Shown piece after piece: positions 20,207 through 41,906 of a stretch of DNA of 42,576 nucleotides. A program made the translations under genes and the position numbers. This DNA comes from an uncultured Eubacteriales bacterium (GTDB lineage: Bacteria > Bacillota > Clostridia > Oscillospirales > Acutalibacteraceae), in NCBI GenBank assembly GCA_900317025.1, contig ONFG01000010.1:1-42576 (forward strand), read 5' to 3'. A model generated the notes under the pieces. The model was given only the letters and a program-made list of their open reading frames with translations. It was not told the DNA's origin and ran no database searches. Position 1 is the first letter of the stretch, and each line of letters starts with the position of its first letter.

Positions 20207-21385
20207 TTATTTAAGACTTTCGGTTAGGCGCTGCATCGCTTCTTTCGTCGCTTCATAGCTTGCGAAGGAAGTAAACCTCATACAGCCCTTGCCGCATTCG
20301 CCGAAGCCCTCACCCGGGGTGGCAACGACGTTTGCCTTTTCAAGGAGAAAGTCGAAGAACTCCCAGCTTCCCATGTTGTTCGGGCAGGAGATCCAGATGT
20401 AAGGCGAATTTTTGCCGCCGGTGTATTCGATGCCGAGGGCGTCCATCGTCTGCATTATCAGGGAAGCGTTGCGCTTGTAATACTCGATGTTTTCCCTCGT
20501 CTGGCGCCGACCTTCGGGCGAGAATACCGCCTCTGCCGCGCGCTGCACGGGGTAGGACACGCCGTTGAATTTCGACGACTGGCGTCTGTACCAAAGCTTT
20601 CCGATACTGTGACCGTCGCGCTCCATCTCCTTCGGGATAACGGTGTAGCCGCAGCGAAGCCCGGTGAAGCCCGCAGTCTTGGAAAGAGAACAGAACTCAA
20701 TGGCGCATTGCCTTGCGCCCACGATGGCGAAGATACTTCTCGGCTTGTCGTCCGAGATGAACGCTTCATACGCACTGTCGTAGAGAATAATAGCATCGTT
20801 TTTGATTGCATATTCTACCCACTGCTCTAACTGTTCTTTTGTATACGCTGCACCCGTCGGGTTGTTAGGGGAGCAAAGGTAGATCACATCGGGGTGAATT
20901 GTCTCGTCCGGTGTTGCGCAGAAGCTGTTTTCCTTTGTAGACGGGGCGATTACGATCTTCCTGCCTGCCATAATATTTGTATCGACGTAAACGGGATAGA
21001 CGGGGTCGGTAACGAGGACGGTGCTGTCAGTCGAGAATATGTCGCCGATGTTGCCGCAGTCGCTCTTTGCGCCGTCGTTTACATATACCTCGTCTGCGCC
21101 GACAAGGACGCCGAACGAAGCGTAGTAGCCACTGATCGCCTTCCTCAGGAATTCATATCCTTCGTAACTCGGGTAACCCTTGAAGGTCTCGGCCTTGCCC
21201 ATCTCGTCGGCGGCTTTCTTTATCGCCTCAACAACAACGGGCGCAAGCGGCAGCGTTACGTCGCCAATGCCCATTCTGATGATCTTCTTGTCGGGATTAG
21301 CCGCCGCGTATTTCTCCGTTCTGTCGGCGACCTCGGCAAAGAGGTAGCTTTCAACAAGGTTATCAAAATTTCTGTTGATCTTCAT
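20207..21385 (-). CDS. dapL: LL-diaminopimelate aminotransferase
   Basis: 392 residues, a PLP-dependent class I aminotransferase. It converts tetrahydrodipicolinate directly to LL-diaminopimelate with glutamate as amino donor, bypassing the acetyl or succinyl route. Visible: GIGDVTLPL (39-47), the NDGAKSDCGNI stretch near 103-113, PNNPTGA, the SLSKTAGF motif with PLP-binding Lys236, and FTSFA near the end. The ATG at 21385 has GGAGGA upstream and lies two bases after the dapF stop, so the two are translationally close. A much longer frame upstream overlaps dapF and is not real. The length is near that of family members. Confidence 0.95.
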   Translation of the reverse strand: MKINRNFDNLVESYLFAEVADRTEKYAAANPDKKIIRMGIGDVTLPLAPVVVEAIKKAADEMGKAETFKGYPSYEGYEFLRKAISGYYASFGVLVGADEVYVNDGAKSDCGNIGDIFSTDSTVLVTDPVYPVYVDTNIMAGRKIVIAPSTKENSFCATPDETIHPDVIYLCSPNNPTGAAYTKEQLEQWVEYAIKNDAIILYDSAYEAFISDDKPRSIFAIVGARQCAIEFCSLSKTAGFTGLRCGYTVIPKEMERDGHSIGKLWYRRQSSKFNGVSYPVQRAAEAVFSPEGRRQTRENIEYYKRNASLIMQTMDALGIEYTGGKNSPYIWISCPNNMGSWEFFDFLLEKANVVATPGEGFGECGKGCMRFTSFASYEATKEAMQRLTESLK

Positions 21386-21387
21386 TT

Positions 21388-22197
21388 TTATTCCTCCACA
21401 ACACCGTCGAATACGAACTCGGCGGGGCCTGTCATGAGCACCTTCTCGTCGGTGTAGACAATAGTCAGTGTACCGCCGAGCAGGTGAACGTTTACAGGTT
21501 CGTTTTTCGGCACAAGACCGTTTGCGGCCGCCGCCGTCACGGTTGCGCAGGCGCCCGTTCCGCAGGCGAGAGTTTCGCCGCTGCCCCTCTCCCACACTCT
21601 CATGCGAAGGTCGTTCTTACCGAGGACGTTCACAAATTCCACGTTTGCCCTGTCGGGGAAAACTTTGTGGTTTTCAAGCGGTCTGCCGAGCTTTTCAAGC
21701 TCGAGAGACGTGGTGTCTTCCTCGGTAAAGATAACGCAATGGGGGTTGCCCATATCGACAAATGTATAGACGTACTCGCCATTTTCCGTCTTGATAGGCT
21801 CCGAGAGCGCTCCGATTATGGGCTTACCCATATCGACTGTAACGCTCTGCGCCTTATGGTCATTCCCGGTTATATCAAGCGTTTTTATGCCGGACTTCGT
21901 CTCGAGCGTGACCTTTGTCTTGTCGGTAAGACCGCGCTCATAAACGTATTTCGCGATACACCTTGACGCGTTGCCGCACATCGCACCCTCGCTGCCGTCG
22001 GCGTTGAACATTCTCATCCTGAAATCAGCCTTGTCCGAAGGCATGATAAGGACTATCCCGTCGCCGCCAACGCCGAAATGCCTGTCGGAAAGTTTTATAG
22101 ACAGCTTCTCCGGATCCTTCGGCTGCGCCTTGCTGACGCAGTCGAAGTAGATGTAATCGTTGCCGAGACCGTGCATTTTTGTAAACTCCAATGACAT
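21388..22197 (-). CDS. dapF: Diaminopimelate epimerase
   Basis: 269 residues. It turns LL- into meso-diaminopimelate for peptidoglycan and lysine. The two active-site cysteines are Cys74 in GAMCGNASRC and Cys212 in ETLACGTGAC; the N-terminal MHGLGNDY is also classical. I start at ATG 22197 because GGAG lies nine bases before it, while the ATG at 22206 directly abuts that site. It sits between gltD and dapL. The sequence-wise neighbour DapL makes its substrate, so the two last steps to meso-DAP are paired. Confidence 0.96.
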   Translation of the reverse strand: MSLEFTKMHGLGNDYIYFDCVSKAQPKDPEKLSIKLSDRHFGVGGDGIVLIMPSDKADFRMRMFNADGSEGAMCGNASRCIAKYVYERGLTDKTKVTLETKSGIKTLDITGNDHKAQSVTVDMGKPIIGALSEPIKTENGEYVYTFVDMGNPHCVIFTEEDTTSLELEKLGRPLENHKVFPDRANVEFVNVLGKNDLRMRVWERGSGETLACGTGACATVTAAAANGLVPKNEPVNVHLLGGTLTIVYTDEKVLMTGPAEFVFDGVVEE

Positions 22198-22233
22198 TTT
22201 TTCCATCTCCGTTTTTATGATGAACGATGATCG

Positions 22234-23721
22234 TCAGATCATGTTGGTGTAGCGCATGAGGAACTCGTCGACCTCACGTGCTGCGGCTCTTCCCTCCGAG
22301 ATCGCCCACACCACAAGGCTCTGACCTCTGTGCATATCTCCCGCGGTAAAGACCTTAGGCACGTTCGTCGAATAGCGGCCTTCTTCTGTTGCAACATTCG
22401 TTCTGGCGTTTGTCTCTACGCCGAACGCCATTGTTACATAATCGCACGAGCCGAGGAAGCCTGCGGCTATTAGCAGCATTTCTGCTTCTACCATTCTTTC
22501 GCTGCCCTCGACGGGGGTCATAACGGTGCGGGCCGTTTCTTCGTCCTTTTTAGGCTCGAGAGAGACAAGCTCTGCCGCTTTGAGGCAGCCGTTATCATCG
22601 CCGATAAGCTTTTTGATCGTCGTCTGATATACCCTCGGGTCGCTGCCGAAGACGGCCGCCGCTTCCTGCTGACCGTAATCGGTCTTGCAGACTCTCGGCC
22701 ACTGAGGCCATGCGTTGTCGTGCGTGCGCTCATCGGGAAGCTTCGGCATCATTTCAAGCTGCGTTATAGAGCGGCAGCCGTGGCGTATACAGGTGCCTAC
22801 GCAGTCGTTGCCGGTGTCGCCGCCGCCGACCACAAGGACGTTTTTATCCTTCGCGCTGATGAAGTTACCGTTTTCATATTCGCCATCGAGAAGCGCCTTT
22901 GTTGTTGATTTAAGGAAATCGACAGCGAAGTGGATGCCGGAAAGCTCTCTGCCTTCGACCTTGAGGTCTCTTGGTTTCGACGCGCCGCAGCAAAGAACGA
23001 CGGCGTCAAAGTTATCCATGATCTCGTCAGCGGAGACGTTTTCGCCGACGTCGCAGTTTGTTTTGAAGACAACGCCCTCGTTTTCCATGAGGCGGACTCT
23101 TCGCATAACGACACTTTTGTCGAGCTTCATGTTCGGGATACCGTACATTAGAAGTCCGCCTAGGCGGTCAGATCTTTCAAAGACCGTGACCTCGTGACCA
23201 CGCTTGTTGAGCATATCTGCGCAGGCAAGACCGGACGGACCCGAACCGATCACCGCCACACGCTTTCCGGAGCGCACCTTCGGCGGATCCGGCTTGATGT
23301 AACCCTCGGAGAAGCCGTACTCTACAATAGCAAGCTCGTTGTCGTGAACTGTAACGGGGCTGTCGTTTAAGCCGCAGGTGCAGGCGGCTTCACAGAGTGC
23401 CGGGCAAACTCTGCCGGTAAACTCCGGGAAGCTGTTTGTTTTGAGAAGTCTGCTCAAAGCGTGCTCCATGTGACCGTTGTAAAGCTCGTCGTTCCACTCG
23501 GGTATGAGGTTATGGAGCGGGCAGCCCGATACCATGCCGTGAAGCTTCATCGCGGACTGGCAGAAGGGTACGCCGCAGTTCATGCAGCGTGCTGCCTGGC
23601 GCACTCTCTCCTCGCGATTGAGCGGAGAGTGGAATTCGCTGAAATCCTTAATTCTCATTTCCGGTGAAACGGTGCCGTTGTTTTCCCTTTCATACTCAAG
23701 GAAGCCTGTAGGTTTACCCAT
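22234..23721 (-). CDS. gltD: Glutamate synthase small (beta) subunit
   Basis: 495 residues. It passes electrons from NAD(P)H through FAD and [4Fe-4S] clusters to the large subunit. The N-terminal cluster cysteines are in ARCMNCGVPFCQ, SGCPLHNLIPEW and GRVCPALCEAACTCG. The FAD-binding motif is AVIGSGPSGLACA (about 155-168), the NADPH one VLVVGGGDTGND (near 290). The end GDMHRGQSLVVWAISEGR is conserved. Its start overlaps the gltB stop by eight bases, so the subunits are translationally coupled. Confidence 0.97.
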   Translation of the reverse strand: MGKPTGFLEYERENNGTVSPEMRIKDFSEFHSPLNREERVRQAARCMNCGVPFCQSAMKLHGMVSGCPLHNLIPEWNDELYNGHMEHALSRLLKTNSFPEFTGRVCPALCEAACTCGLNDSPVTVHDNELAIVEYGFSEGYIKPDPPKVRSGKRVAVIGSGPSGLACADMLNKRGHEVTVFERSDRLGGLLMYGIPNMKLDKSVVMRRVRLMENEGVVFKTNCDVGENVSADEIMDNFDAVVLCCGASKPRDLKVEGRELSGIHFAVDFLKSTTKALLDGEYENGNFISAKDKNVLVVGGGDTGNDCVGTCIRHGCRSITQLEMMPKLPDERTHDNAWPQWPRVCKTDYGQQEAAAVFGSDPRVYQTTIKKLIGDDNGCLKAAELVSLEPKKDEETARTVMTPVEGSERMVEAEMLLIAAGFLGSCDYVTMAFGVETNARTNVATEEGRYSTNVPKVFTAGDMHRGQSLVVWAISEGRAAAREVDEFLMRYTNMI

Positions 23722-26700
23722 TTTGCTTCTCCCCCTTCTGCATCTCGTAAAACGCCTCGAGAACCGCCTGATCGTGGCTCAGGCCCTTCTCCTCGAAGCG
23801 CCCTATCTCGCCGAGCATTTTATTGTAATCGTTAGGCATTATCTTCTTGAAGTTCGGCAGAAAGCTCTCGAAGTCTGCAAGCATTCTCCCGGCAAGCGGC
23901 GAGTCTGTCGCTTCAAGGTGCTTTTCGATCATCGTGCGAAGCTCCTCGATGTCGTGCTTTTCGGTGACGTCGGTCATCGTTACAAGCTCCTTGTTGAGCT
24001 TTAAGTAGAAGTCGTGGCGCGCGTCATATACATAAGCAATGCCGCCGCTCATTCCTGCGGCGAAGTTTCTGCCGGTAGGTCCTAAAACGACTACCCTGCC
24101 GCCCGTCATATACTCGCAGCCGTGGTCTCCCACACCCTCGCAGACTGCGTATGCGCCGGAATTGCGCACACAGAAGCGCTCGCCTGCAACGCCATTGATA
24201 TATGCTTCTCCGCTCGTCGCGCCGTAAAGCGCAACGTTGCCAACGATAATGTTTTCTTCCGCCTTAAAGTCGCTGTCCTTCGGCGGGTAAAGGACGAGTT
24301 TGCCGCCCGAAAGGCCCTTGCCGAAGTAGTCGTTTGAATCGCCCTCGAGCCTGAGCGTCAGACCCTTCGGGATAAACGCGCCGAACGACTGTCCGCCGCC
24401 GCCCGAGCACTGCACGGTATAGAAATCGTCCTCGAGCGTCTCGCCAAATCTCTCGGTAATAACAGAGCCGAAGATCGTTCCAAGCGAACGGTCGGTGCTT
24501 GTGACGTTGACTCTGACCGTCTTTTTCGTGTGGTTCTTCATCGCCTTCGTAAACTCGGGAATAAGCTTGCTTTCGTCGATAGTTTTATCAAGACCGAAGT
24601 CGTAAACGTCGTTCGGGTCGAATCTCTTCTTCTCCTCGTTTGCGTATTCACGGCTGAGGATGCCGGCGAGGTCAACTTTTTCCGCTCTGTCGGTTACCTG
24701 CTTGCCTCTAACCTTCAGAAGGTCTGTTCTGCCGACAAGCTCATCGACCGTGCGGACGCCGAGCTTTGCCATGATCTCGCGAAGCTCCTCGGCGATAAAC
24801 ATCATGAAATTTACGATGTACTCCGGCTTGCCGCAGAAGCGCTTTCTAAGCTCAGGGTTCTGTGTAGCGATGCCCACGGGGCAGGTGTCGAGGTTGCAGA
24901 CACGCATCATCACGCAGCCCATAGTTACGAGCGGAGCCGTGGCAAAGCCGAATTCCTCGGCGCCAAGCATAGCGGCGATCGCAACGTCTCTTCCGCTCAT
25001 GAGCTTGCCGTCTGTCTCGATAATAACGCGCGAGCGCAGACCGTTCCGGATAAGTGTCTGGTGAGTTTCTGCAAGACCAAGCTCCCAAGGCAGACCCGCG
25101 TTGTGTATCGAGCTTACGGGCGCAGCCCCCGTGCCGCCGTCGTAGCCGGAAATGAGGACGACCTGCGCGCCTGCCTTCGCAACGCCCGCCGCGATAGTTC
25201 CGACGCCCGCCTCGCTGACAAGCTTTACGGAGATCCTAGCTTTTCTGTTGGCGTTTTTAAGGTCGTAAATGAGCTGAGCCAGATCCTCGATAGAGTAGAT
25301 ATCGTGGTGAGGCGGTGGAGAGATCAGCGCCACGCCCGGCGTTGAGTAGCGGTTCTTGGCGATCCACGGGTATACCTTCTTTCCCGGAAGATGGCCGCCC
25401 TCTCCGGGCTTTGCGCCCTGAGCCATCTTAATCTGTATTTCCTTGGCGCTCATAAGGTACTTGCTCGTTACGCCGAAGCGACCCGAGGCTACCTGCTTGA
25501 TGGCGCTGTTTTTGTCAGTTCCGAAGCGCTCGGGCATCTCGCCGCCTTCGCCGGAGTTTGACTTTCCGTGCAGGCGGTTCATAGCCTGCGCCATGCACTC
25601 GTGAGCCTCCTGGCTGATCGAGCCGTAGCTCATCGCGCCCGTTTTAAAGCGCTTTACGATCTCGCTCGCAGGCTCGACCTCATCGATCGGGATACTGCGG
25701 CTATCATCATAGTCAAGCTCCATCAAGCCTCTGAGCGTATGCGGTACGCTCTCGTTGTCGACCATAGCGGTGTACTCCTTGAAACGCTTGTAATCGCCCG
25801 TCTGAGTTGCCTCGCGGAGAGCGATGATCGTTTCGGGATTGTACATATGGTCTTCTTTATCGTGACCGGAGCGAAGCTTGTGGGAGCCTACGCTGTCTGT
25901 GGTCGTATCTACGCCGAGACCGAGCGGGTCGAATGCGTGGTCGTGGCGCCACTCGACGCCCTCGCCGATCTCTTCAAGTCCGATGCCTCCGATTCGGCTT
26001 ACCGTATTCGTAAAATACTTGTCGATAACGTCCTGCTTTATGCCGACCGCCTCAAAGATCTGAGACGACTGGTAGGAATGTATCGTTGAAATGCCCATCT
26101 TTGAGGCGATCTTGACGATTCCGTGAAGAACGGCGGAGTTGTAGTCCTTGATAGCGGTGTGATAGTCCTTATCGAGCAAACCCTTGTCGATAAGCTCGGT
26201 GATGCACTCCTGCGCAAGGTACGGGTTTACGGCTCTTGCGCCGTAGCCGAGAAGCGCGGCGAAATGGTGCACCTCGCACGGCTCTGCGCTCTCGAGGATT
26301 ATCGAAACGGCGGTGCGCTTCTTCGTTCTGATAAGGTACTGCTCCATCGCGGAAACGGCGAGCAGTGACGGGATAGCTACGTGGTTCTCGTCGACGCCTC
26401 TGTCGGAGAGCACGATGATGTTCGCGCCGTTTCTATACTCTCTGTCACACGAAACAAACAGCCTGTCAAGCGCGCGCTCGAGCGACGTGTTTTTATAGTA
26501 AAGCAGCGATACGGTCGCGACCTTGAAACCGGGGCGCTTGATCGCCTTGATCTTCATGAGATCGACGGACGTAAGTATCGGATTATGGATCTCAAGCATA
26601 TTGCAGTTGTCGGCCTTTTCCTCGAGAAGGTTGCCGTCGGAGCCGACGTATACGGTCGTATCGGTGACGATCTCCTCACGGATAGCGTCGATCGGCGGGT

Positions 26701-28312
26701 TAGTTACCTGCGCGAATATCTGCTTGAAGTAGTTGAAAAGCGACTGGTGCTTCTCGGAGAGGACGGCTAACGGGATATCCGTTCCCATTGCGGCAGTTGC
26801 CTCGCCGCCGTTTTTTGCCATCGGGAGGATCGAATCCCTTATCTGCTCGTAGCAGTAGCCGAACGCTTTATAGAGGCGGTCGCGCTGCTCCTGCGTATGG
26901 TTCTCGACCTTGTGGTTCGGGATCGGCAGCTCGCTGAGGTTTACGAGGTTCTGGTCCAGCCATTCGCCGTAGGGCTTTTCGAGGGCGTAGCGCTGCTTTA
27001 GCTCCTCATCGGAGATAACGCGCTGCTGTCTGAGGTCGACAAGGAGCATCTTGCCGGGCTGAAGGCGGCTTTTTTTAACGATCCTCTCGTTGTTAACCGG
27101 AAGAACACCTACCTCGGACGAAAGGATAAGCATATCGTCGTCGGTGATGTAGTAGCGTGAGGGGCGCAGACCGTTTCTGTCGAGCACCGCGCCGACCGTG
27201 TCGCCGTCTGAAAAGAGGATCGCCGCGGGACCGTCCCACGGCTCCATCATCGTGGAGTAGTAGTGGTAGAAATCACGCTTTTCGCGCGAGATAGTTTTAT
27301 CGTTCGAGTACGGCTCGGGGATAGCCACCATAACAGCCTTAGGAAGCTCCATGCCGTTCATCATGAGGAACTCGAGTGTGTTGTCGAGCATCGCGGAGTC
27401 GGAGCCGGAGCCGTTGATAACTGGGAGTATCTTGTCGATGTCGTCCTGCATTACGGGGCTTGTCATCGTCTCTTCACGGGCAAGCATTCTGTCGGCGTTG
27501 CCGCGGATCGTGTTTATCTCGCCGTTGTGGAGGATAACTCTGTTCGGGTGAGCGCGCTCCCACGAGGGGTTGGTGTTCGTCGAGAATCTCGAGTGAACCA
27601 GTGCGAGCGCACTTTCGTATTCCTCGCTCCGGAGATCGAGATAAAAGCGGCGAAGCTGGTTTACAAGGAACATTCCCTTGTAGACGATCGTTCTCGACGA
27701 GAAGGAACAGACGTATGTGTTGTCGTTGCTCTGCTCGAATTCGCGGCGGATCACGTAAAGCCGTCTGTCGAACTCAATGCCCTTTTTCACGCCTTCGGGC
27801 TTCTTAACGAAGCACTGCATTATACGGGGCATACAGTCGAGAGCCTTCTTTCCGATAGCGGCGCTGTCGGTCGGGACGTCACGCCAGCCGAGGAACTCTA
27901 CGCCTTCCTTCCGGGAGATGATCTCGAGCATCTTTTTTGCCTGGCTGCATTTAAGCTCATCCTGCGGGAGGAAGAACATTCCGACTCCGTAGCTTCTCTT
28001 TTCGCCGAGGTCTAACCCAAGCTCCGCGGTTGCCTTTTTAAAGAAGCCGTGGGAAATCTGGAGAAGTATACCTACGCCGTCACCCGTTTCTCCCGCTGCG
28101 TCTTTACCAGCTCTGTGCTCAAGCTTTTCAACGATAGAGAGCGCGTCGTTTACAACGGAGTGGGTCTGTTCGCCCTTGATGCTGACAACCGCGCCGATAC
28201 CGCAGGCATCATGCTCAAATTCCGGGCGGTAAAGCGCCGCACCTTCCTTTCTCTCGGGCATGAACAGGTCGCCCCTGCAGCCTTGCGCCGCTCTGTTATT
28301 AAGATCATTCAT
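23714..28312 (-). CDS. gltB: Glutamate synthase large (alpha) subunit
   Basis: 1532 residues, matching the usual length. With GltD it makes two glutamates from glutamine and 2-oxoglutarate. The N-terminal class II amidotransferase begins at Cys37 in HDACGIG, which should be exposed by propeptide removal. The central and FMN domains follow (GEGGEMPERFG, then AKPGEGGHLPGKK), with 3Fe-4S cysteines in CVMMRVCNLDTCPVG. The C-terminal GXGXG helix domain includes GSVITERFGE and ATSGEAYINGVAGERF. GAGGT precedes ATG 28312. An internal ATG at 28261 with a GGGG site could give a shorter propeptide. It is the central gene of the nitrogen operon. Confidence 0.97.
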   Translation of the reverse strand: MNDLNNRAAQGCRGDLFMPERKEGAALYRPEFEHDACGIGAVVSIKGEQTHSVVNDALSIVEKLEHRAGKDAAGETGDGVGILLQISHGFFKKATAELGLDLGEKRSYGVGMFFLPQDELKCSQAKKMLEIISRKEGVEFLGWRDVPTDSAAIGKKALDCMPRIMQCFVKKPEGVKKGIEFDRRLYVIRREFEQSNDNTYVCSFSSRTIVYKGMFLVNQLRRFYLDLRSEEYESALALVHSRFSTNTNPSWERAHPNRVILHNGEINTIRGNADRMLAREETMTSPVMQDDIDKILPVINGSGSDSAMLDNTLEFLMMNGMELPKAVMVAIPEPYSNDKTISREKRDFYHYYSTMMEPWDGPAAILFSDGDTVGAVLDRNGLRPSRYYITDDDMLILSSEVGVLPVNNERIVKKSRLQPGKMLLVDLRQQRVISDEELKQRYALEKPYGEWLDQNLVNLSELPIPNHKVENHTQEQRDRLYKAFGYCYEQIRDSILPMAKNGGEATAAMGTDIPLAVLSEKHQSLFNYFKQIFAQVTNPPIDAIREEIVTDTTVYVGSDGNLLEEKADNCNMLEIHNPILTSVDLMKIKAIKRPGFKVATVSLLYYKNTSLERALDRLFVSCDREYRNGANIIVLSDRGVDENHVAIPSLLAVSAMEQYLIRTKKRTAVSIILESAEPCEVHHFAALLGYGARAVNPYLAQECITELIDKGLLDKDYHTAIKDYNSAVLHGIVKIASKMGISTIHSYQSSQIFEAVGIKQDVIDKYFTNTVSRIGGIGLEEIGEGVEWRHDHAFDPLGLGVDTTTDSVGSHKLRSGHDKEDHMYNPETIIALREATQTGDYKRFKEYTAMVDNESVPHTLRGLMELDYDDSRSIPIDEVEPASEIVKRFKTGAMSYGSISQEAHECMAQAMNRLHGKSNSGEGGEMPERFGTDKNSAIKQVASGRFGVTSKYLMSAKEIQIKMAQGAKPGEGGHLPGKKVYPWIAKNRYSTPGVALISPPPHHDIYSIEDLAQLIYDLKNANRKARISVKLVSEAGVGTIAAGVAKAGAQVVLISGYDGGTGAAPVSSIHNAGLPWELGLAETHQTLIRNGLRSRVIIETDGKLMSGRDVAIAAMLGAEEFGFATAPLVTMGCVMMRVCNLDTCPVGIATQNPELRKRFCGKPEYIVNFMMFIAEELREIMAKLGVRTVDELVGRTDLLKVRGKQVTDRAEKVDLAGILSREYANEEKKRFDPNDVYDFGLDKTIDESKLIPEFTKAMKNHTKKTVRVNVTSTDRSLGTIFGSVITERFGETLEDDFYTVQCSGGGGQSFGAFIPKGLTLRLEGDSNDYFGKGLSGGKLVLYPPKDSDFKAEENIIVGNVALYGATSGEAYINGVAGERFCVRNSGAYAVCEGVGDHGCEYMTGGRVVVLGPTGRNFAAGMSGGIAYVYDARHDFYLKLNKELVTMTDVTEKHDIEELRTMIEKHLEATDSPLAGRMLADFESFLPNFKKIMPNDYNKMLGEIGRFEEKGLSHDQAVLEAFYEMQKGEKQNG

Positions 28313-28357: not shown

Positions 28358-29953
28358 TCATTTATCGGAAACCGCTTCAATAAGCCCCCTGAAGAGTGGG
28401 TGCGCCTTGTTTGGGCGGCTCTTGAATTCGGGATGGAACTGCACCCCAACGTAAAATCTGTTTTCCGGCATCTCTACCGTCTCGACGATCATGCCATCGG
28501 GCGACGTTCCACTTAAAACAAGCCCGCTGTTTACAAGCTGATCCCTGAATTCGTTGTTGAACTCGTAGCGGTGGCGGTGGCGCTCGATGATCTCGGATTT
28601 TCCGTAACACAGCTGCATCTTCGTGTTGTCGGCAATGCGGCATTTATAGGAGCCGAGGCGAAGCGTTCCGCCCTTGTTGATCTCGTTGTTCTGGTCAGGC
28701 ATGAAGTCGATGACCTTGTGGCTTGAGGAAGCATCAAACTCGCCGGAGTTCGCGTCGGCAAATCCACAGACGTTTCTCGCGAATTCGATAACGGCGATCT
28801 GCATACCGAGACAAATGCCGAGGTACGGCAGGTCGTTTTCTCTTGCGTATTTCGCAGCAGCGATCATGCCGGGAATACCACGCTCGCCAAATCCTCCGGG
28901 GACTATGACCGCGTCCAGCCCCCTCAGCTTTTCGGCTGCATTCTCATCGGTGATCTCTTCACTGTCAATCCACTCGATATTGGTGTGTACCTTGCAGGCG
29001 TAGCCCGCATGGTGTATCGCCTCGGCGACGGAAAGATACGCGTCGTGAAGCTGGACGTATTTACCTACGATCCCCACGGTGACGCTCTTATCACGCCCGC
29101 GAATATTTTCGAGCATCTCGTTCCAGTCGGAAAGGTCGGGCTGCTTCGCTTCGAGGCGGAGCTTTTTGAGAACGACCTCGGAGAAATGCGCCTTTTCAAG
29201 CATGATCGGCGCTTCGTAAAGCACGGGAACATTCGTATTTTCGATAACGCAGTCCTCGGTGACGTTGCAGAAGAGGGATATCTTTTTGAAGATATTGCTC
29301 TCGAGCGGCTCGTCGCAGCGAAGGACGATAATGTCGGGCTTTATGCCCATGCCTTGAAGCTCTTTGACGGAGTGCTGGACCGGCTTCGTTTTATGCTCGT
29401 CGGAGCAGTGAAGGTACGGCACCAGAGCGACGTGGATATAACACACATTTTCAAAGCCGACTTCAAGCCCTACCTGGCGTATCGCCTCGATGAACGGCTG
29501 GCTCTCAATGTCGCCCGTCGTGCCGCCGATCTCTGTGATGACGACATCGGCGTCGCTCATGCTTCCCACATTATATATGAAATGCTTTATCTCGTTCGTA
29601 ACGTGCGGTATGACCTGAACGGTCTCTCCGAGAAACTCGCCCCTGCGCTCCTTATTGAGGATATTCCAGTACACCTTTCCCGTTGTCAGATTGGAGTATT
29701 TGTTCAGATCCTCGTCGATAAATCGCTCGTAGTGGCCGAGGTCGAGGTCGGTCTCCGCGCCATCCTCCGTTACGAAGACCTCTCCGTGCTGATATGGACT
29801 CATCGTTCCCGGATCAACGTTGATGTACGGGTCAAGCTTCTGAGCGGCGATCTTTAAGCCGCGCGCCTTGAGAAGTCTTCCCAGTGATGCCGCTGTAATG
29901 CCTTTTCCAAGCCCCGAAACAACGCCGCCCGTAACGAAAATGTACTTTGTCAT
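28358..29953 (-). CDS. pyrG: CTP synthase (glutamine-hydrolysing)
   Basis: 531 residues. It aminates UTP to CTP using glutamine and ATP. The synthetase half starts with [20 protein letters not shown] (P-loop); [13 protein letters not shown] follows, with GGTTGDIES later. The glutamine amidotransferase half has the catalytic Cys in [17 protein letters not shown] and the His/Glu dyad in [16 protein letters not shown] precedes ATG 29953. A hairpin lies between the ANTAR gene and this one (29988-30008). Its place among glutamine genes fits its need for glutamine nitrogen. Confidence 0.97.
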
Positions 29954-30020: not shown

Positions 30021-30605
30021 TTAATCGTCCTCGTCGGACAGCTTAGCGATAACTCTTCTCGCCGCCTCGGACTTTTTGATCCCCGAGTCCATCGCCGCTT
30101 TTTCGATGAAGCGGTGCGCCTGCTCTTCCGTCATATCCCTTTCGGATATCAGCAGGCTTTTCGCCTTTGTAACAAGCCTTACTTCACGAAGCTTGCTCTC
30201 GAGCTTTTCGGTATCGTCGCGCAGCCGCCTCATCTTTGTTGCGGAGGCGAACATCACCATCATAGTCTGGTAAAGCACAGAGCGGTTGAGTACCTTTGAG
30301 AGCGTTACGACACCGTACTGCTCCAGCTTGAACGAAACCCTCTCGATCTGCTCCGGACTGACGATCGTGACAACGGCACATTCTCCCGACGAACTTACGG
30401 CAAGCTTCGTTCCAAATTCGTCGGAGAGCGGCATATTGATTATCATAATGTCGATCGGGGTTCTGAGCAGAGTACGGCGAGCCTCGGCTGCGCTCGAAAC
30501 GCAAAGCACCGGTGAAAACCGGCTTTGGGGTATCGCGGCTTTGATGAAATCGACTGCCCTGCCCTCCTTTGAAACTATAAGAACACTTCGACATTCGCCC
30601 TGCAC
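30021..30605 (-). CDS. ANTAR-domain antiterminator with degenerate receiver
   Basis: 194 residues from GTG 30605, chosen because GAGGTGATC precedes it at normal distance. The N-terminal half has the receiver fold, but the acidic pair after strand 1 is Ser12-Lys13 (VLIVSKEG), and the phospho-Asp position is Ile55 (IMIINMP), so phosphorylation control is unlikely. Lys104 of the fold is kept. Residues about 135-188 are the ANTAR RNA-binding domain (KAKSLLISERDMTEEQAHRF, then EKAAMDSGIKKSEAARRVI). Known ANTAR proteins such as EutV and NasT bind two hexaloop hairpins and prevent termination. It lies directly after glnA, whose leader has a candidate hairpin. Confidence 0.92.
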   Translation of the reverse strand: MQGECRSVLIVSKEGRAVDFIKAAIPQSRFSPVLCVSSAAEARRTLLRTPIDIMIINMPLSDEFGTKLAVSSSGECAVVTIVSPEQIERVSFKLEQYGVVTLSKVLNRSVLYQTMMVMFASATKMRRLRDDTEKLESKLREVRLVTKAKSLLISERDMTEEQAHRFIEKAAMDSGIKKSEAARRVIAKLSDEDD

Positions 30606-30644
30606 AAAGATCACCTCTTTTCGTCACGCTGACTGTTTATACGA

Positions 30645-31841
30645 TCATCTCAAAAAGCCCAGCGGAATGTTTTGCTTTATAAACTCACTGTTTCTTGCAA
30701 GCTCGGCTGCCGCCTCGTACGACCCCGGCAGGAGTTTAAGCTGCTTTGTCACGCTCTCGGGCGCTATGTAAAGGTTCACGTTCTGCGGCTCGGGCGGTTC
30801 AAGGCCGTTCTCTATGCCGTCCATTGCGGCACGGATGAGCAGCGCATAAGCCACATACGGGTTGACCGTCGGGTCGGGAGAGCGAAGCTCCAGCCTGCGG
30901 TACTCTCCCTTTGCTGCGGGTATACGCACGAGCTGAGAGCGGTTTTCGTGAGACCATGTGATGTATTTCGGCGCCTTGTCTCTGCCGAGGCGCTTGTAAG
31001 ATTCCTCGCAGGGGTTCAGAAACGCCGTCATCTCTGCAACATGGGCAAGAATGCCCGCAAGCATTCCGCGCGAATGATCCTTGCCGTCGGTCGACTTTAC
31101 CGACATATTTATATGCAAACCACTTCCGCTCTTTTCGGGCAGCGGCTTCGGTGAAAAGTCGGCGCAAAGACCGTTTACATCAGAGACGGACGCGACTACC
31201 TTTTTGAACGTTACGGCGTTGTCCGCGGAGGTAATGGCGTCGCTGTACTTGAAATCTATCTCGTTCTGACCGGGACCCATCTCGTGATGGGAGCTTTCCG
31301 GCATGATATCCATATTCAAAAGTGTGAAGCAGATGTCGCGCCTTACGTCCTCACCCTTGTCTTCGGGGGCGTTGTCCATGTAGCCTGCATTATCGAAGGG
31401 GATCTTAGTGTCGCAGCCGTTCTCGTCGCGCTTGAAAAGGTAGAATTCAAACTCCGCGCCGAAATTGAACGTGATGCCCTTTTTCTTCGCAGCATCGACG
31501 GCTTCCTTTAAAAGACGGCGGCTGTCAAGCTCGAAGGGCGTGCCATCAGGCTTGTATATGCCGCAGAACATTCTGGCGACCCTGCCCTGATCCGGTCTCC
31601 ACGGAAGGATCTGGATCGTCTGAGCGACCGGCTTTAAGAACAAGTCGGAGCTTACCTCGTCACCAAAGCCGTAAATGCTCGAGGCATCAAAGGCGATTCC
31701 GTCGGTGAATGCTCGTTTCAGCTCCGACGGCATAATTGAAATATTTTTTTGGATTCCTGCAATATCAACAAAGGAAAGACGGATAAACTTTATGTCCTCC
31801 TCTTCGATGAAATCCATTACGTCTATATATGAACAACACAT
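30645..31841 (-). CDS. glnA: Type I glutamine synthetase, short C-terminus
   Basis: 398 residues; typical type I enzymes have about 440-475. It joins ammonia and glutamate using ATP. Conserved parts: DIAGIQKN and FDASSIYGF near the start, AEFEFYLF (metal-binding Glu), PESSHHEMGPGQNEIDF, SGSGLHINMS, KAPKYITWSHENRSQLVRIP and ELRSPDPTVNPYVAYA. The family's last 35-45 residues are missing: the protein ends soon after LPGSYEAAAEL. GGAGG precedes ATG 31841. The ANTAR gene follows 39 bases later. Transcription starts at the promoter at 32048-32076 and must pass the leader terminator. Confidence 0.95.
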   Translation of the reverse strand: MCCSYIDVMDFIEEEDIKFIRLSFVDIAGIQKNISIMPSELKRAFTDGIAFDASSIYGFGDEVSSDLFLKPVAQTIQILPWRPDQGRVARMFCGIYKPDGTPFELDSRRLLKEAVDAAKKKGITFNFGAEFEFYLFKRDENGCDTKIPFDNAGYMDNAPEDKGEDVRRDICFTLLNMDIMPESSHHEMGPGQNEIDFKYSDAITSADNAVTFKKVVASVSDVNGLCADFSPKPLPEKSGSGLHINMSVKSTDGKDHSRGMLAGILAHVAEMTAFLNPCEESYKRLGRDKAPKYITWSHENRSQLVRIPAAKGEYRRLELRSPDPTVNPYVAYALLIRAAMDGIENGLEPPEPQNVNLYIAPESVTKQLKLLPGSYEAAAELARNSEFIKQNIPLGFLR

Positions 31842-31967: not shown

Positions 31968-32026
31968 AAAAAATAAAAGGCATCCACCGCAAGGGGACAC
32001 TTTCCCCCATTGCAATGAACGCCTTT
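31968..32026 (-). terminator. Leader terminator/attenuator of glnA with A1-G4 hexaloop
   Basis: On the minus strand a stem of 22 pairs (with GU pairs and one bulged T at 32009) runs from AAAGGC (32026-32021) to GCCTTT (31981-31976) and closes on the six-base loop AAAGTG (32003-31998). TTTTATTTTTT follows. A at position 1 and G at position 4 of the loop are the conserved bases of ANTAR target hairpins. It sits between the glnA promoter and glnA, so it can act as an attenuator, and would also stop readthrough from trpF. Confidence 0.85.
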
Positions 32027-32047
32027 GCCCATTTCTTCAATGAAGAT

Positions 32048-32076
32048 ATTGTACTAAAAAAAGCGCGTTTTGTCAA
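32048..32076 (-). promoter_or_regulatory. Promoter of the glnA operon
   Basis: Minus strand: perfect -35 TTGACA (32076-32071), 17-base spacer, -10 TACAAT (32053-32048). Transcription should start near 32041, about 15 bases before the attenuator stem, giving a leader of about 200 bases to glnA. Confidence 0.88.
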
Positions 32077-32169: not shown

Positions 32170-32790
32170 TTATGCAAAGCTGCTCATTTTGGAAACCCTT
32201 TTCACCTCGAAAATGAAGCGCTCCATCTTAGCTCTGTCCTTTTTGCCGCCCGTTTCGATACCCGAGCTTACGTCAACGCCGAACGGGCGAAGCTTTGCGA
32301 CAGCCTCGGCCGCGTTGTCGGGAGAAAGTCCGCCCGCGAGCAGATAGGGCCTTTTTACGCTTTTAGCAAGGCTCCAGTCAAATGACGCGCCGCTGCCGGT
32401 GCCGGAATCAAGCAGGATAAGATCGGCGGGGCTTGCCTCCGCTTTTTTGCAGTCTTCAAGGCTCCTTACGCAAAACGCCTGGATTATCGGATTGCTTGTA
32501 AGCCCACGCAGCGTTTTGATGTAGTCGTCAGTTTCGGCTCCGTGGAGCTGGGCTTCGTCTATAATACCGCTTTCGAGAAGCCCGGCTACCGTCCCGGGCG
32601 CTTCGTTGACGAAAACGCCGACAGCTTTGACGCGGCTGTCAAGCAGCGCTTTGAGGCTTCTCGCCGTTTCTCGGTCTACAAAGCGCTTGCTTTTAGGCGC
32701 GAAGACGAAGCCGATGTAATCTGGCAAAAGCTCGTTTGCAGCCAGAATATCCTCGGGGCGCGAAAGCCCGCAAAGCTTTATCCTCGTCAT
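32170..32790 (-). CDS. trpF: Phosphoribosylanthranilate isomerase
   Basis: 206 residues, a (beta/alpha)8 enzyme converting phosphoribosylanthranilate to CdRP in tryptophan synthesis. Visible: IKLCGLSRPED at the start with the catalytic Cys, YIGFVFAPKSKR, VGVFVN, LHGAE, and LLAGGLSPDN with GVDVSSGIE near the end. It starts inside the trpC stop (ATGA overlap, 32787-32790), so it is translationally coupled. It is the last trp gene here; no trpB or trpA follows. Confidence 0.96.
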   Translation of the reverse strand: MTRIKLCGLSRPEDILAANELLPDYIGFVFAPKSKRFVDRETARSLKALLDSRVKAVGVFVNEAPGTVAGLLESGIIDEAQLHGAETDDYIKTLRGLTSNPIIQAFCVRSLEDCKKAEASPADLILLDSGTGSGASFDWSLAKSVKRPYLLAGGLSPDNAAEAVAKLRPFGVDVSSGIETGGKKDRAKMERFIFEVKRVSKMSSFA

Positions 32791-39145: not shown

Positions 39146-41236
39146 TCAAACGCCGAAAAGGATCTCGCCGTAGGAAGGATAAGGCCATGCTTCGGCGGAA
39201 GTTTTCTTCTCCATGTCGTCACCGATGGTACGAAGTTCGCCCATTAGAGCAAACACCTTCTCGCGGTAATACATCGCAAGAGAAAGAACCTCAGTATAGG
39301 CTGCCGCACCGTAAACGGCTGCTTTCAGCTCATCCGTCTTCTTGACGAAGGCTTCAAGCTTTTCAGAAAGTTCCTGCGCGAGCGTTGTCTCTGCGTAAAC
39401 GGAAATCGCAGGAGAAAGCGCCTTCTTTGCGAGGGCAGCGTCCGCAAGGCGGTTTACAAAGCCGATGACTGCCGGAGTGATGTTCTTTTCCGCCATGTCG
39501 ATCATTGTAAGGGCCTCGATGCGGATCTCCTTTGAGTAGTGTTCAAGTTCTATCTCGTAGCGGGCGTGGATCTCCGCTTCGGACACGATACCGTTTCTTA
39601 CGAAGAGGTCAACGTTTTTCTTGTCTATATAATGAGACATCGCCTCGGGCATGGAACGGAAGTTGCAAAGACCTCTTCTCTCTGCCTCGGCTACCCACTC
39701 ATCAGAGTAGTTGTCGCCGTTGAAGATGATGTTCTTGTGTTCTGTAAGGGTCTTTCTGATGAGTGCCTTCATAGCGGCTTCGAGATCGTCCGCGTCTTTA
39801 AGCTCGTCGTAGAAGCCTGCAAGCTCGTCGGCTACCATCGTGTTGAGCATATAGTTCGGGCAAGCGATGTTGAGAGAAGAGCCAAGCGCTCTGAACTCGA
39901 ACTTGTTTCCCGTAAAGGCGAACGGAGAGGTGCGGTTTCTGTCGGAGGTGTCCTTTTTGAAATCGGGAAGCACATCTACGCCTGTAAGCATTTCGACCTT
40001 GCCGCTGCTGCGGTACTCCGTGCCGTTTACGATCGAATCAACAAGCGCGCCGAGGTCGTCGCCAAGGTACATCGAGATGATTGCGGGAGGCGCCTCGTTT
40101 GCGCCGAGGCGGTGGTCGTTGCCTGCGGAAGCGACCGTAAGCCTGAGCAGATCCTGGTATTCATGAACAGCCTTTACGATAGCTGCGAGGAAAAGCTGGA
40201 ACTGGAGATTGTTTTCGGGAGTCTTGCCGGGATCGAGAAGATTCTCGCCTGTGTTGGTCGAGATGGACCAGTTATTGTGCTTGCCCGAGCCGTTAACGCC
40301 TGCAAACGGCTTCTCGTGGAGCAGGCAGACCAGACCGTGCTTCTCGGCAGTCTTCTTCATTACCTCCATCGTAAGCTCGTTGTGATCTGTGGCGATATTA
40401 GAAGTCGCAAAGATCGGCGCCAGCTCATGCTGCGAGGGAGCGACCTCGTTATGCTTCGTCTTAGCCATAACGCCGAGCTTCCAAAGCTCCTCGTCGAGAT
40501 CGTTCATAAAGGCTGCCACTCTCGTCTTGATTGAGCCGAAGTAGTGGTCTTCAAGCTCCTGTCCCTTCGGAGCGGGTGCTCCAAAGAGCGTTCTTCCGGT
40601 GTAGATAAGGTCGGGGCGCTTGTCGTACATCTCCTTGTCGATGAGGAAATACTCCTGCTCAGGACCTACCGTAGTAGTAACGCGCGTTACGTCTTCCTTG
40701 CCGAGAAGATGAAGAACGTCTACGGCAACGCTGCTGAGCTTCTCCATCGAACGGAGCAGCGGCGTCTTCTTGTCGAGCACCTCGCCTGTATAAGAGCAGA
40801 ACGCCGTCGGGATATAGAGCGTTTTATCGCGGATGAACGCCGGTGAGGTCGGATCCCACGTTGTGTAGCCTCTCGCCTCGAAAGTAGCGCGGATACCGCC
40901 GGAGGGGAACGAAGATGCGTCCGGCTCGCCCTTTATAAGCTCCTTGCCCGAGAACTCCATGATGACCTGTCCGTCGCTTGCGGGATAGATGAAGCTGTCG
41001 TGCTTCTCGGCGGTAACGCCCGTCATGGGCTGAAACCAGTGGGTGTAATGAGTGCAGCCCATTTCGACCGCCCACTCCTTCATCGCGTTAGCAACACCAT
41101 TAGCTACGCTCAAGTCGAGCGGATCGCCGTTCTTGATCGTCCTCTTCAGCGCCTTATATGTCGCATGAGGAAGACGCTCCTCCATCTTGCGGTCATTAAA
41201 CACCATACTTCCGAAGAGCTCGGGAACATTTGCCAT
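39146..41236 (-). CDS. glnN: Type III glutamine synthetase
   Basis: 696 residues, the large GS form found in Bacteroides, cyanobacteria and Clostridia. Visible: [33 protein letters not shown] (metal-binding Glu), [24 protein letters not shown]-like [29 protein letters not shown] and [18 protein letters not shown] start at ATG 41236, with AGGAG nine bases upstream; an in-frame TTG at 41245 is too close to that site. A separate promoter and a leader terminator precede it. Together with glnA the cell has two unrelated GS forms, probably used in different nitrogen states. Confidence 0.96.
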
Positions 41237-41267: not shown

Positions 41268-41314
41268 CAAAAAAAGACAAGAACGCCGAAAGCTGTAAGC
41301 TTGCGACGTCCTTG
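41268..41314 (-). terminator. Leader terminator/attenuator of the type III GS gene
   Basis: Minus strand: CAAGGACGTCG (41314-41304) pairs with CGGCGTTCTTG (41288-41278), with an inner AAGCT/AGCTT helix, followed by TCTTTTTTT. It sits between the promoter (41331-41359) and the GS start, so readthrough must be controlled or leaky. The loop does not match the ANTAR A1-G4 pattern. Confidence 0.8.
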
Positions 41315-41330
41315 CCGTATCTACGCTGTT

Positions 41331-41359
41331 AGTATACATCACTTTTTTTCTTCTGTCAA
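41331..41359 (-). promoter_or_regulatory. Promoter of the type III GS gene
   Basis: Minus strand: perfect -35 TTGACA (41359-41354), 17-base spacer, -10 TATACT (41336-41331). The transcript leader is about 90 bases. Confidence 0.9.
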
Positions 41360-41530: not shown

Positions 41531-41559
41531 TTTATTGATTGCGTTTTCAAAACAAAGGA

Positions 41560-41906
41560 GGACCAGACCTATAAGCCGAGTTCTGTTAAAAGCAGTCATC
41601 TATCTTGGCGCATCGTTACCGATGCGCTCACTGCCACCTCCACCGGACACGCCGGGCAAGCGTATTGTCCGTCCACGGTGTTGCTCTGAATAGGGTTTGC
41701 AGGGCCGCAGGCTTCCGCCTGCGCCGGTGAGCTCTTACCTCGCCTTTCCACCCTTACCTGCAAAAGCAGGCGGTATATCTCTGTTGCACTTTCCCTGAGG
41801 TCGCCCTCGGCGGCTGTTAGCCGTTATTCCGCCCTGTAGAGCTCGGACTTTCCTCGCATACAGCCTTTCGGCATAAGTACCCGCGACTGCTCAGTCTGCT
41901 CCGTCT
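41560..41906 (-). ncRNA. rnpB: RNase P RNA
   Basis: On the minus strand the conserved cores are all present: GAGGAAAGTCCGAGCTC near the 5' end, ACAGGGCGGAATAACGGC, GAGGGCGACCTCAGGGAAAG, GCAACAGAGA, GGTAAGGGTGGAAAGGCG, ACCCTATTCAGAGCAA, and the 3' core GAACTCGGCTTATAGG. The length of about 347 bases is normal. It is the catalytic RNA that matures tRNA 5' ends. The promoter at 41913-41941 fixes the 5' end near 41906; the exact 3' end is not certain. Confidence 0.96.

Follow-up and report, generated by a model that had tools for sequence, protein, structure and literature searches.

A probable single-hexaloop ANTAR attenuator in the glnA leader of an uncultured member of the Clostridia

Does the ANTAR protein encoded behind glnA in an uncultured Eubacteriales bacterium control its own operon, and through which RNA hairpin would it act? 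ANTAR proteins bind hairpins whose six-base loops carry A1 and G4, and block transcription termination. The DNA analysed here (the window) is a stretch of 42,576 nucleotides (contig ONFG01000010.1) from an assembly of 1.83 Mb that is 92% complete (GCA_900317025.1), and the nearest named relatives of its GlnA, at 73–79% identity, come from rumen or gut metagenome-assembled genomes labelled Ruminococcus, Clostridiales or Clostridia. Judged from sequence, an ANTAR attenuator very likely stands before glnA. We propose that this leader is probably an ANTAR-controlled transcription attenuator with one hexaloop, and that such a single-hexaloop variant likely governs ammonium assimilation.

Published ANTAR attenuator models, in the parts of the cited papers available here, define the site as two hairpins (PMC3369931, PMC8164766), and EutV needed both hexaloops in vivo (PMC8934654). 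According to the available text of the EutV structure paper, single-hexaloop sites may exist where binding is free of the time limit that transcription sets; since a dimer can hold only one hexaloop, the paper leaves unanswered what the second is needed for, and it asks how widely single-hexaloop sites are used (PMC8934654). The terminator switch described here seems to make do with one. In the literature searched, which took in few subscription papers, no title or abstract opening pointed to a single-hexaloop ANTAR attenuator, and the term occurred only in PMC8934654.

Promoter and terminator of the glnA leader

The leader holds the following features:

32076-32048, minus strand: glnA promoter, TTGACA-17-TACAAT, with a predicted +1 near 32041
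32033-32044, minus strand: TTC-ATTGAA-GAA, an earlier candidate for an upstream hairpin (P1)
32014-32033, minus strand: predicted antiterminator hairpin AATGGGC[AAAGGC]GTTCATT, seven pairs and an A1-G4 hexaloop
31968-32026, minus strand: intrinsic glnA terminator (stem-loop 32026-31976, U tract 31975-31968), which excludes the hairpin above
31998-32003, minus strand: apical terminator loop AAAGTG

The first-pass annotation of this DNA had described a consensus promoter followed by a 22-pair hairpin closing on AAAGTG and a T run, and both descriptions hold. The promoter fits 11 of 12 consensus positions; promoter-like sites in the region number 5, against 2.1 ± 1.5 in shuffles. The leader from 31970 to 32041 (72 nt) folds at −33.4 kcal/mol (z = −5.3; equalled by 0 of 200 shuffles), with a stem that reads, in the predicted fold, as 17 + 5 pairs around a single bulge, and the stem-loop is followed by TATTTTTT at 31975-31968 (minus strand). 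A simple terminator scan of the region missed this terminator. The seven closest glnA relatives (L093–L099, which with the window make up the eight closest leaders) share the promoter and its spacing class.

The trp gene row lies upstream (trpF ends at 32170); the terminator-like hairpin behind it (32150-32058, minus strand) takes in the −35 box of the glnA promoter, and the two signals thus overlap in sequence.

The conserved hairpin lies at the base of the terminator

The annotation had also proposed an ANTAR-type terminator switch before glnA, recognized through the apical AAAGTG. The switch stands, but the recognition loop was misassigned. T at position 5, as in AAAGTG, occurs in 0 of the 141 conserved loops described below. 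An apical A1-G4 loop on at least four pairs is present in only three of the eight closest leaders (the window, L093 and L097), and was not found in the terminators of L094, L095, L096, L098 and L099. AAAGTG sits within the terminator itself, so that a protein bound there would not prevent termination; the loop may be there by chance or as a local addition.

The hairpin AATGGGC[AAAGGC]GTTCATT, which the annotation overlooked, begins about 8 nt past the predicted start site. The 5′ arm of the terminator consists of the loop and 3′ arm of this hairpin, and the two structures are thus mutually exclusive. The hairpin has the A1-G4 hexaloop on a stem of at least three pairs by which published dual-hexaloop sites are defined and, again as published, lies at the 5′ base of an intrinsic terminator that it excludes; the latter also holds for 58 of 60 matches from outside the training set (see below). 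The first 31 nt of the leader form it at −5.3 kcal/mol, a value not unusual for their composition. The annotation had named loss of A1 and G4 in related genomes as a refutation: AAAGTG fails by this measure, and the promoter-proximal hairpin passes it.

All seven closest relatives share the order of promoter, 13–14-nt gap, hairpin and terminator. More widely, hairpin and terminator lie directly upstream of glnA in 24 of 78 named loci, and in 22 of the 24 the gap does not exceed 14 nt; the other 54 have no element directly upstream of glnA, often with another gene in front. (The 78 are drawn from 80 named loci, L170 and L171 being omitted because a contig end cuts glnA; among the 60 family loci first fetched, glnA was absent from the stretch in seven, L058, L064, L074, L086, L089, L090 and L091, and L057 and L080 were omitted as cut.) Among the forms listed for the relatives' leaders, ATGAGC[AANGGC]GTTCAT recurs right after the −10 box. 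A hexaloop scan that imposed no letters on 79 glnA leaders returned 20 promoter-proximal hairpins competing with a terminator, 17 of them with A1-G4 (16 leaders); dinucleotide shuffles, repeated over 20 rounds, yielded not a single hairpin, whatever its loop.

The element scan itself required A1, G4 and at least four pairs (the four inner ones), which therefore lend no independent support. Loop positions 2 and 5 were not imposed, and across 141 elements the loop reads AANGRN, with A at position 2 in 140 and a purine at position 5 in all 141. Pairs 5 and 6 were likewise free. Among 58 matches outside the training set, pair 5 forms in 45 (shuffled mean 29.4) and pair 6 in 33 (24.8), and among 25 glnA leaders each forms in 20 (14.3 and 13.3); the maxima of 300 shuffles were 37 and 33 for the matches and 20 and 18 for the leaders, so that two of the four counts were equalled. 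The scan found 89 elements, of which six with weak promoters or odd stems were dropped; 73 of the remaining 83 form alignment A1, in which stem covariation is 0.569 against 0.259 ± 0.019 in shuffles.

This covariation bears on whether the repeat acts as DNA. It follows closely on the −10 box and has dyad-like arms, as would suit an operator for a dimeric repressor, yet we consider this very improbable: pair 2 is G-U in 47 of 73 sequences, always with G on the 5′ side, which makes no DNA dyad; the arms vary through paired substitutions around an asymmetric loop that does not change; in the scanned elements one arm of the terminator falls on this repeat; and the elements associate with an RNA-binding protein family, the ANTAR proteins.

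A leader peptide MS(N/K)GVH, read from ATG AGC AAN GGC GTT CAT, a frequent form of the glnA hairpin, was also considered and rejected, since other leaders begin with GTG, TTG or ACG or have no start, and the letters follow from pairing. In L211 and L239, an open frame that begins within the hairpin, with ATG or GTG (MSKGVH..., VNKGVH...), continues into the amidotransferase gene.

One hexaloop or two

The annotation had conceded that no upstream partner P1 was clear, noting that its candidate TTC-ATTGAA-GAA overlaps the predicted start. That overlap is borne out (32044-32033), and the lack of a partner proves general. Over the 83 elements, the predicted RNA ahead of the hairpin has a median length of 4 nt and never exceeds 13 nt, which would leave hardly any room for P1 in so far as promoters are correctly predicted, and none of the 83 predicted 5′ ends holds a P1-like hairpin of at least three pairs. 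With promoters ignored, a search for an A1-G4 partner on the upstream side (at least four pairs, G-C closing pair, linker of 2–25 nt) found none in 128 elements. A control scan of 25 eutP loci gave four elements and no dual motif, so the argument against P1 rests mainly on the short distance between hairpin and promoter.

Two dual-hexaloop arrangements have to be weighed against the single hexaloop. In the classical one, transcription would begin farther upstream and include an unrecognized P1, for example TTC-ATTGAA-GAA, whose loop is A1-G4 on only three pairs. The start sites are indeed predicted ones, and an AAAGAG hairpin occupies a similar place in L093; however, the near-consensus promoters and their 13–14-nt gap in all seven closest relatives, together with the absence of partners in both scans, make this arrangement unlikely. 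TTC-ATTGAA-GAA would moreover leave a 3-nt linker, a length that drastically reduced induction in the eutP test as reported in the available literature.

In the other arrangement, the 5′ hairpin is P1 and the apical part of the terminator, GGGGG[AAAGTG]TCCCC, about 5 nt away, is P2. Both window loops have A1 and G4, and L093 and L097 carry apical A1-G4 loops too. Of 83 terminators, 11 have such a loop where mononucleotide shuffles give 3.2, though shuffling makes a weak control for sequences that are hairpins to begin with. Against this stand the five close relatives that lack the loop, the T at its position 5 and the inclusion of the apical hairpin in the terminator, with which it would not compete; furthermore, among 92 terminators that hold any hexaloop, A1-G4 (11) is matched by several other letter pairs, such as A1-A4 (13) and T1-T4 (10). 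We hold this layout, too, to be improbable, and retain the single promoter-proximal hexaloop.

The ANTAR protein and the glnA operon

Behind the leader, the genes are arranged as follows:

30645-31841, minus strand: glnA, type I glutamine synthetase (Gln-synt_C PF00120, Gln-synt_N PF03951)
30021-30614, minus strand: ANTAR protein gene (PF03861), with a receiver-like domain that lacks the phospho-acceptor Asp; proposed antiterminator
28358-29953, minus strand: CTP synthase gene (PF06418, PF00117), 67 nt behind the ANTAR gene
23714-28312, minus strand: gltB, glutamate synthase large subunit (PF00310, PF01645, PF04898, PF01493)
20207-23721, minus strand: gltD, dapF and DAP aminotransferase frames, named by inspection, which extend the gene row

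Pfam domains thus bear out the order of glnA and ANTAR gene behind the promoter and terminator that the annotation had given, and in each of the 80 named loci glnA is followed by an ANTAR gene. An ANTAR-type terminator switch at this place would make autoregulation likely, as the annotation had supposed, together with control of the genes read through from glnA: CTP synthase and gltB (by Pfam), and gltD, dapF and the DAP aminotransferase gene (by inspection).

The ANTAR domain of the window protein scores 50.6 bits (cut-off 27.3), and its predicted model best matches RNA-bound EutV (TM 0.80 to 6ww6_B), which has the same receiver-like and ANTAR domains. It differs from EutV at residues whose roles are described in the available part of PMC8934654. 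The phospho-accepting Asp is not kept (among 30 proteins the position is Asn in 28, His in one and Asp in one), and Tyr164 is His in the aligned ANTAR proteins, which retain Met172. With Asp replaced by Asn, a partner kinase seems unlikely; nitrogen might instead be sensed through glutamine synthetase, a guess by analogy with GlnR systems as described in the available text of PMC9249791. The same genome encodes a second ANTAR protein (L001 1474-2061, minus strand; G000:C12), behind a pheA-like gene and with Asn near the phospho-acceptor place.

We built a covariance model, R1, of promoter plus hairpin; its E-values are rough and, since it contains the promoter, some weak matches are promoters alone. 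Among 150 family genomes, 91 have a Pfam ANTAR match; the same search gave none in 14 control genomes, Bacillus subtilis among them. R1 matches at E ≤ 1e-3 occur in 58 of these 91 against 5 of the 59 without and, once the 13 training genomes are removed, in 46 of 78 against 5 of 59 (P = 4e-10). The five exceptions are G004, where the match sits at a contig end, G083, which has a partial relative of the ANTAR protein at a contig edge, G006, G072 and G148. In G148, which is 99% complete, a good element (L219, G148:C9) precedes an ATP synthase A-chain gene.

The exceptions, and the fact that ANTAR binding is here an inference, leave some room for another regulator on the same RNA, a riboswitch or a different RNA-binding protein, with the ANTAR gene a mere neighbour. 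We judge this quite unlikely in view of the association with ANTAR genomes; the C-G-closed A1-G4 hexaloop is, moreover, the ANTAR signature found by SELEX (available text of PMC7496416), and no Rfam family fits. In a search of the whole window with Rfam release 15, RNase P alone reached its gathering score, and the glnA leader and 15 related loci gave only chance-level matches below cut-off. The RNase P RNA, of bacterial class A, lies at 41556-41902 (minus strand), upstream of a second leader described next.

Sister elements before genes of ammonium assimilation

The four best R1 matches in the genome precede glnA (43.6 bits), a GSIII gene in the window (43.4), amtB (42.2) and a second GSIII gene (34.2); the fifth (30.5 bits) lies before apparent tRNA genes, and the scan shows no terminator that would compete with it. 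The GSIII leader of the window is organized like that of glnA:

41331-41359, minus strand: GSIII promoter, TTGACA-17-TATACT
41304-41317, minus strand: sister antiterminator hairpin CGGC[AAGGAC]GTCG
41269-41316, minus strand: GSIII leader terminator (stem-loop 41316-41276, U tract 41275-41269)
39146-41236, minus strand: GSIII, glnN-type glutamine synthetase (PF12437, PF18318), with its ATG placed at 41236 by inspection (41245 in the frame list)

The terminator folds at −28.2 kcal/mol (z = −6.05). An inverted-repeat finder returned nothing in this leader, the arms of the hairpin holding a G-U pair.

We examined the 60 best R1 matches in the family genomes (down to E = 2.9e-4) outside the window's own genome and the training stretches; G015, G095, G098 and G108 are among the genomes concerned and have training elements elsewhere. 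Hairpin and terminator are present in all but two of them (L205 and L228). The first downstream gene could be read for 58 (not for L193 and L251) and encodes a glutamine synthetase, class-II amidotransferase, Amt, GDH or AsnA in 50: 28 GSIII, 12 class-II glutamine amidotransferase domains, 4 ammonium transporters, 4 glutamate dehydrogenases, 1 AsnA and 1 type I glutamine synthetase. Further first genes encode asparagine synthase (perhaps within the twelve amidotransferases), PurC, GatC and a class IV aminotransferase; three, a MoxR-like ATPase, an ATP synthase A chain and a hydrolase, do not fit, and one short frame is without clear family.

Elements also occur in cultured Ruminococcus albus, strain 8 included, and Treponema porcinum (12 of 25 matches examined), where they precede CTP synthase, AsnA, GSIII, amidotransferase, amtB and glnA genes, named by inspection; a match in Treponema berlinense is without such a hairpin. 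The glnA-ANTAR pair itself is found in gut Treponema (L112–L160) as in Clostridia, in some cases with the same leader element, and its distribution suggests gene transfer.

Proposed mechanism and relation to known systems

In the mechanism that we propose, RNA polymerase would start at the TTGACA/TACAAT promoter and the first ~30 nt of RNA would fold into the small A1-G4 hexaloop hairpin. Left unbound, the hairpin would lose its loop and 3′ arm to the downstream sequence, and the strong terminator so formed would stop transcription. Active ANTAR protein from the same operon would hold the hairpin and so keep the terminator from forming, and transcription would run on through glnA, the ANTAR gene and the genes that follow. 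We infer that low nitrogen induces the system and that one hexaloop is enough. Since the same module stands before GSIII, amtB and other ammonium-assimilation genes, the ANTAR protein would govern a nitrogen regulon in which it also promotes its own expression.

We lean towards a broader reading as well, namely that Clostridia and gut Treponema share a widespread ANTAR regulon in which a single hexaloop at the 5′ end is a complete co-transcriptional antiterminator, with a reader that lacks the phospho-acceptor Asp, is encoded behind glnA and perhaps senses through glutamine synthetase, with no kinase. This would be a likely answer to how ammonium assimilation is controlled in Ruminococcus-like bacteria and gut Treponema. 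The single-hexaloop leader offers a natural minimal system for the question of why other sites have two, and R1 can serve to search for a class of sites for which the published dual-hairpin models were not designed.

Known systems share parts of this design, as far as the available texts describe them. The eut leaders of Enterococcus faecalis, read by EutV, likewise place a hairpin with an A1-G4 hexaloop at the foot of an intrinsic terminator, on its 5′ side (PMC3369931; PMC8934654; 6ww6), but have both P1 and P2, whereas the window element has one hexaloop, on a hairpin very close to where the predicted RNA begins. Klebsiella NasR, acting on nasF, prefers the same C-G closing pair and A1-G4 loop and does bind a lone hairpin, P2, though more weakly (about 12 µM), full affinity needing both hairpins; unlike the window protein, it has a nitrate-sensing domain (PMC7496416). 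NitR of Clostridium saccharobutylicum, also an ANTAR protein, is reported to act by antitermination and to induce GS/GOGAT genes when nitrogen is limiting; its RNA site, which the available part of PMC6316151 does not describe, may or may not equal the window element. Desulfotomaculum ANTAR regulons also place hairpins before glutamate synthase, ammonium transporter and other nitrogen genes, with several units per genome, but their sites were both defined and sought as hairpin pairs joined by a linker (PMC3369931). The RAT antiterminators of the Sac/Bgl family offer a precedent for a single protein-held hairpin overlapping a terminator, with other proteins and another RNA site (PMC3369931).

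In some leaders the whole unit is doubled. Tandem pairs of hairpin and terminator precede amtB in the window's own genome, in Treponema porcinum and in RUG10651 (among L175, L279, L287 and L293), and a further pair stands before a GSIII gene of Ruminococcus albus KH2T6, giving two gates in a row.
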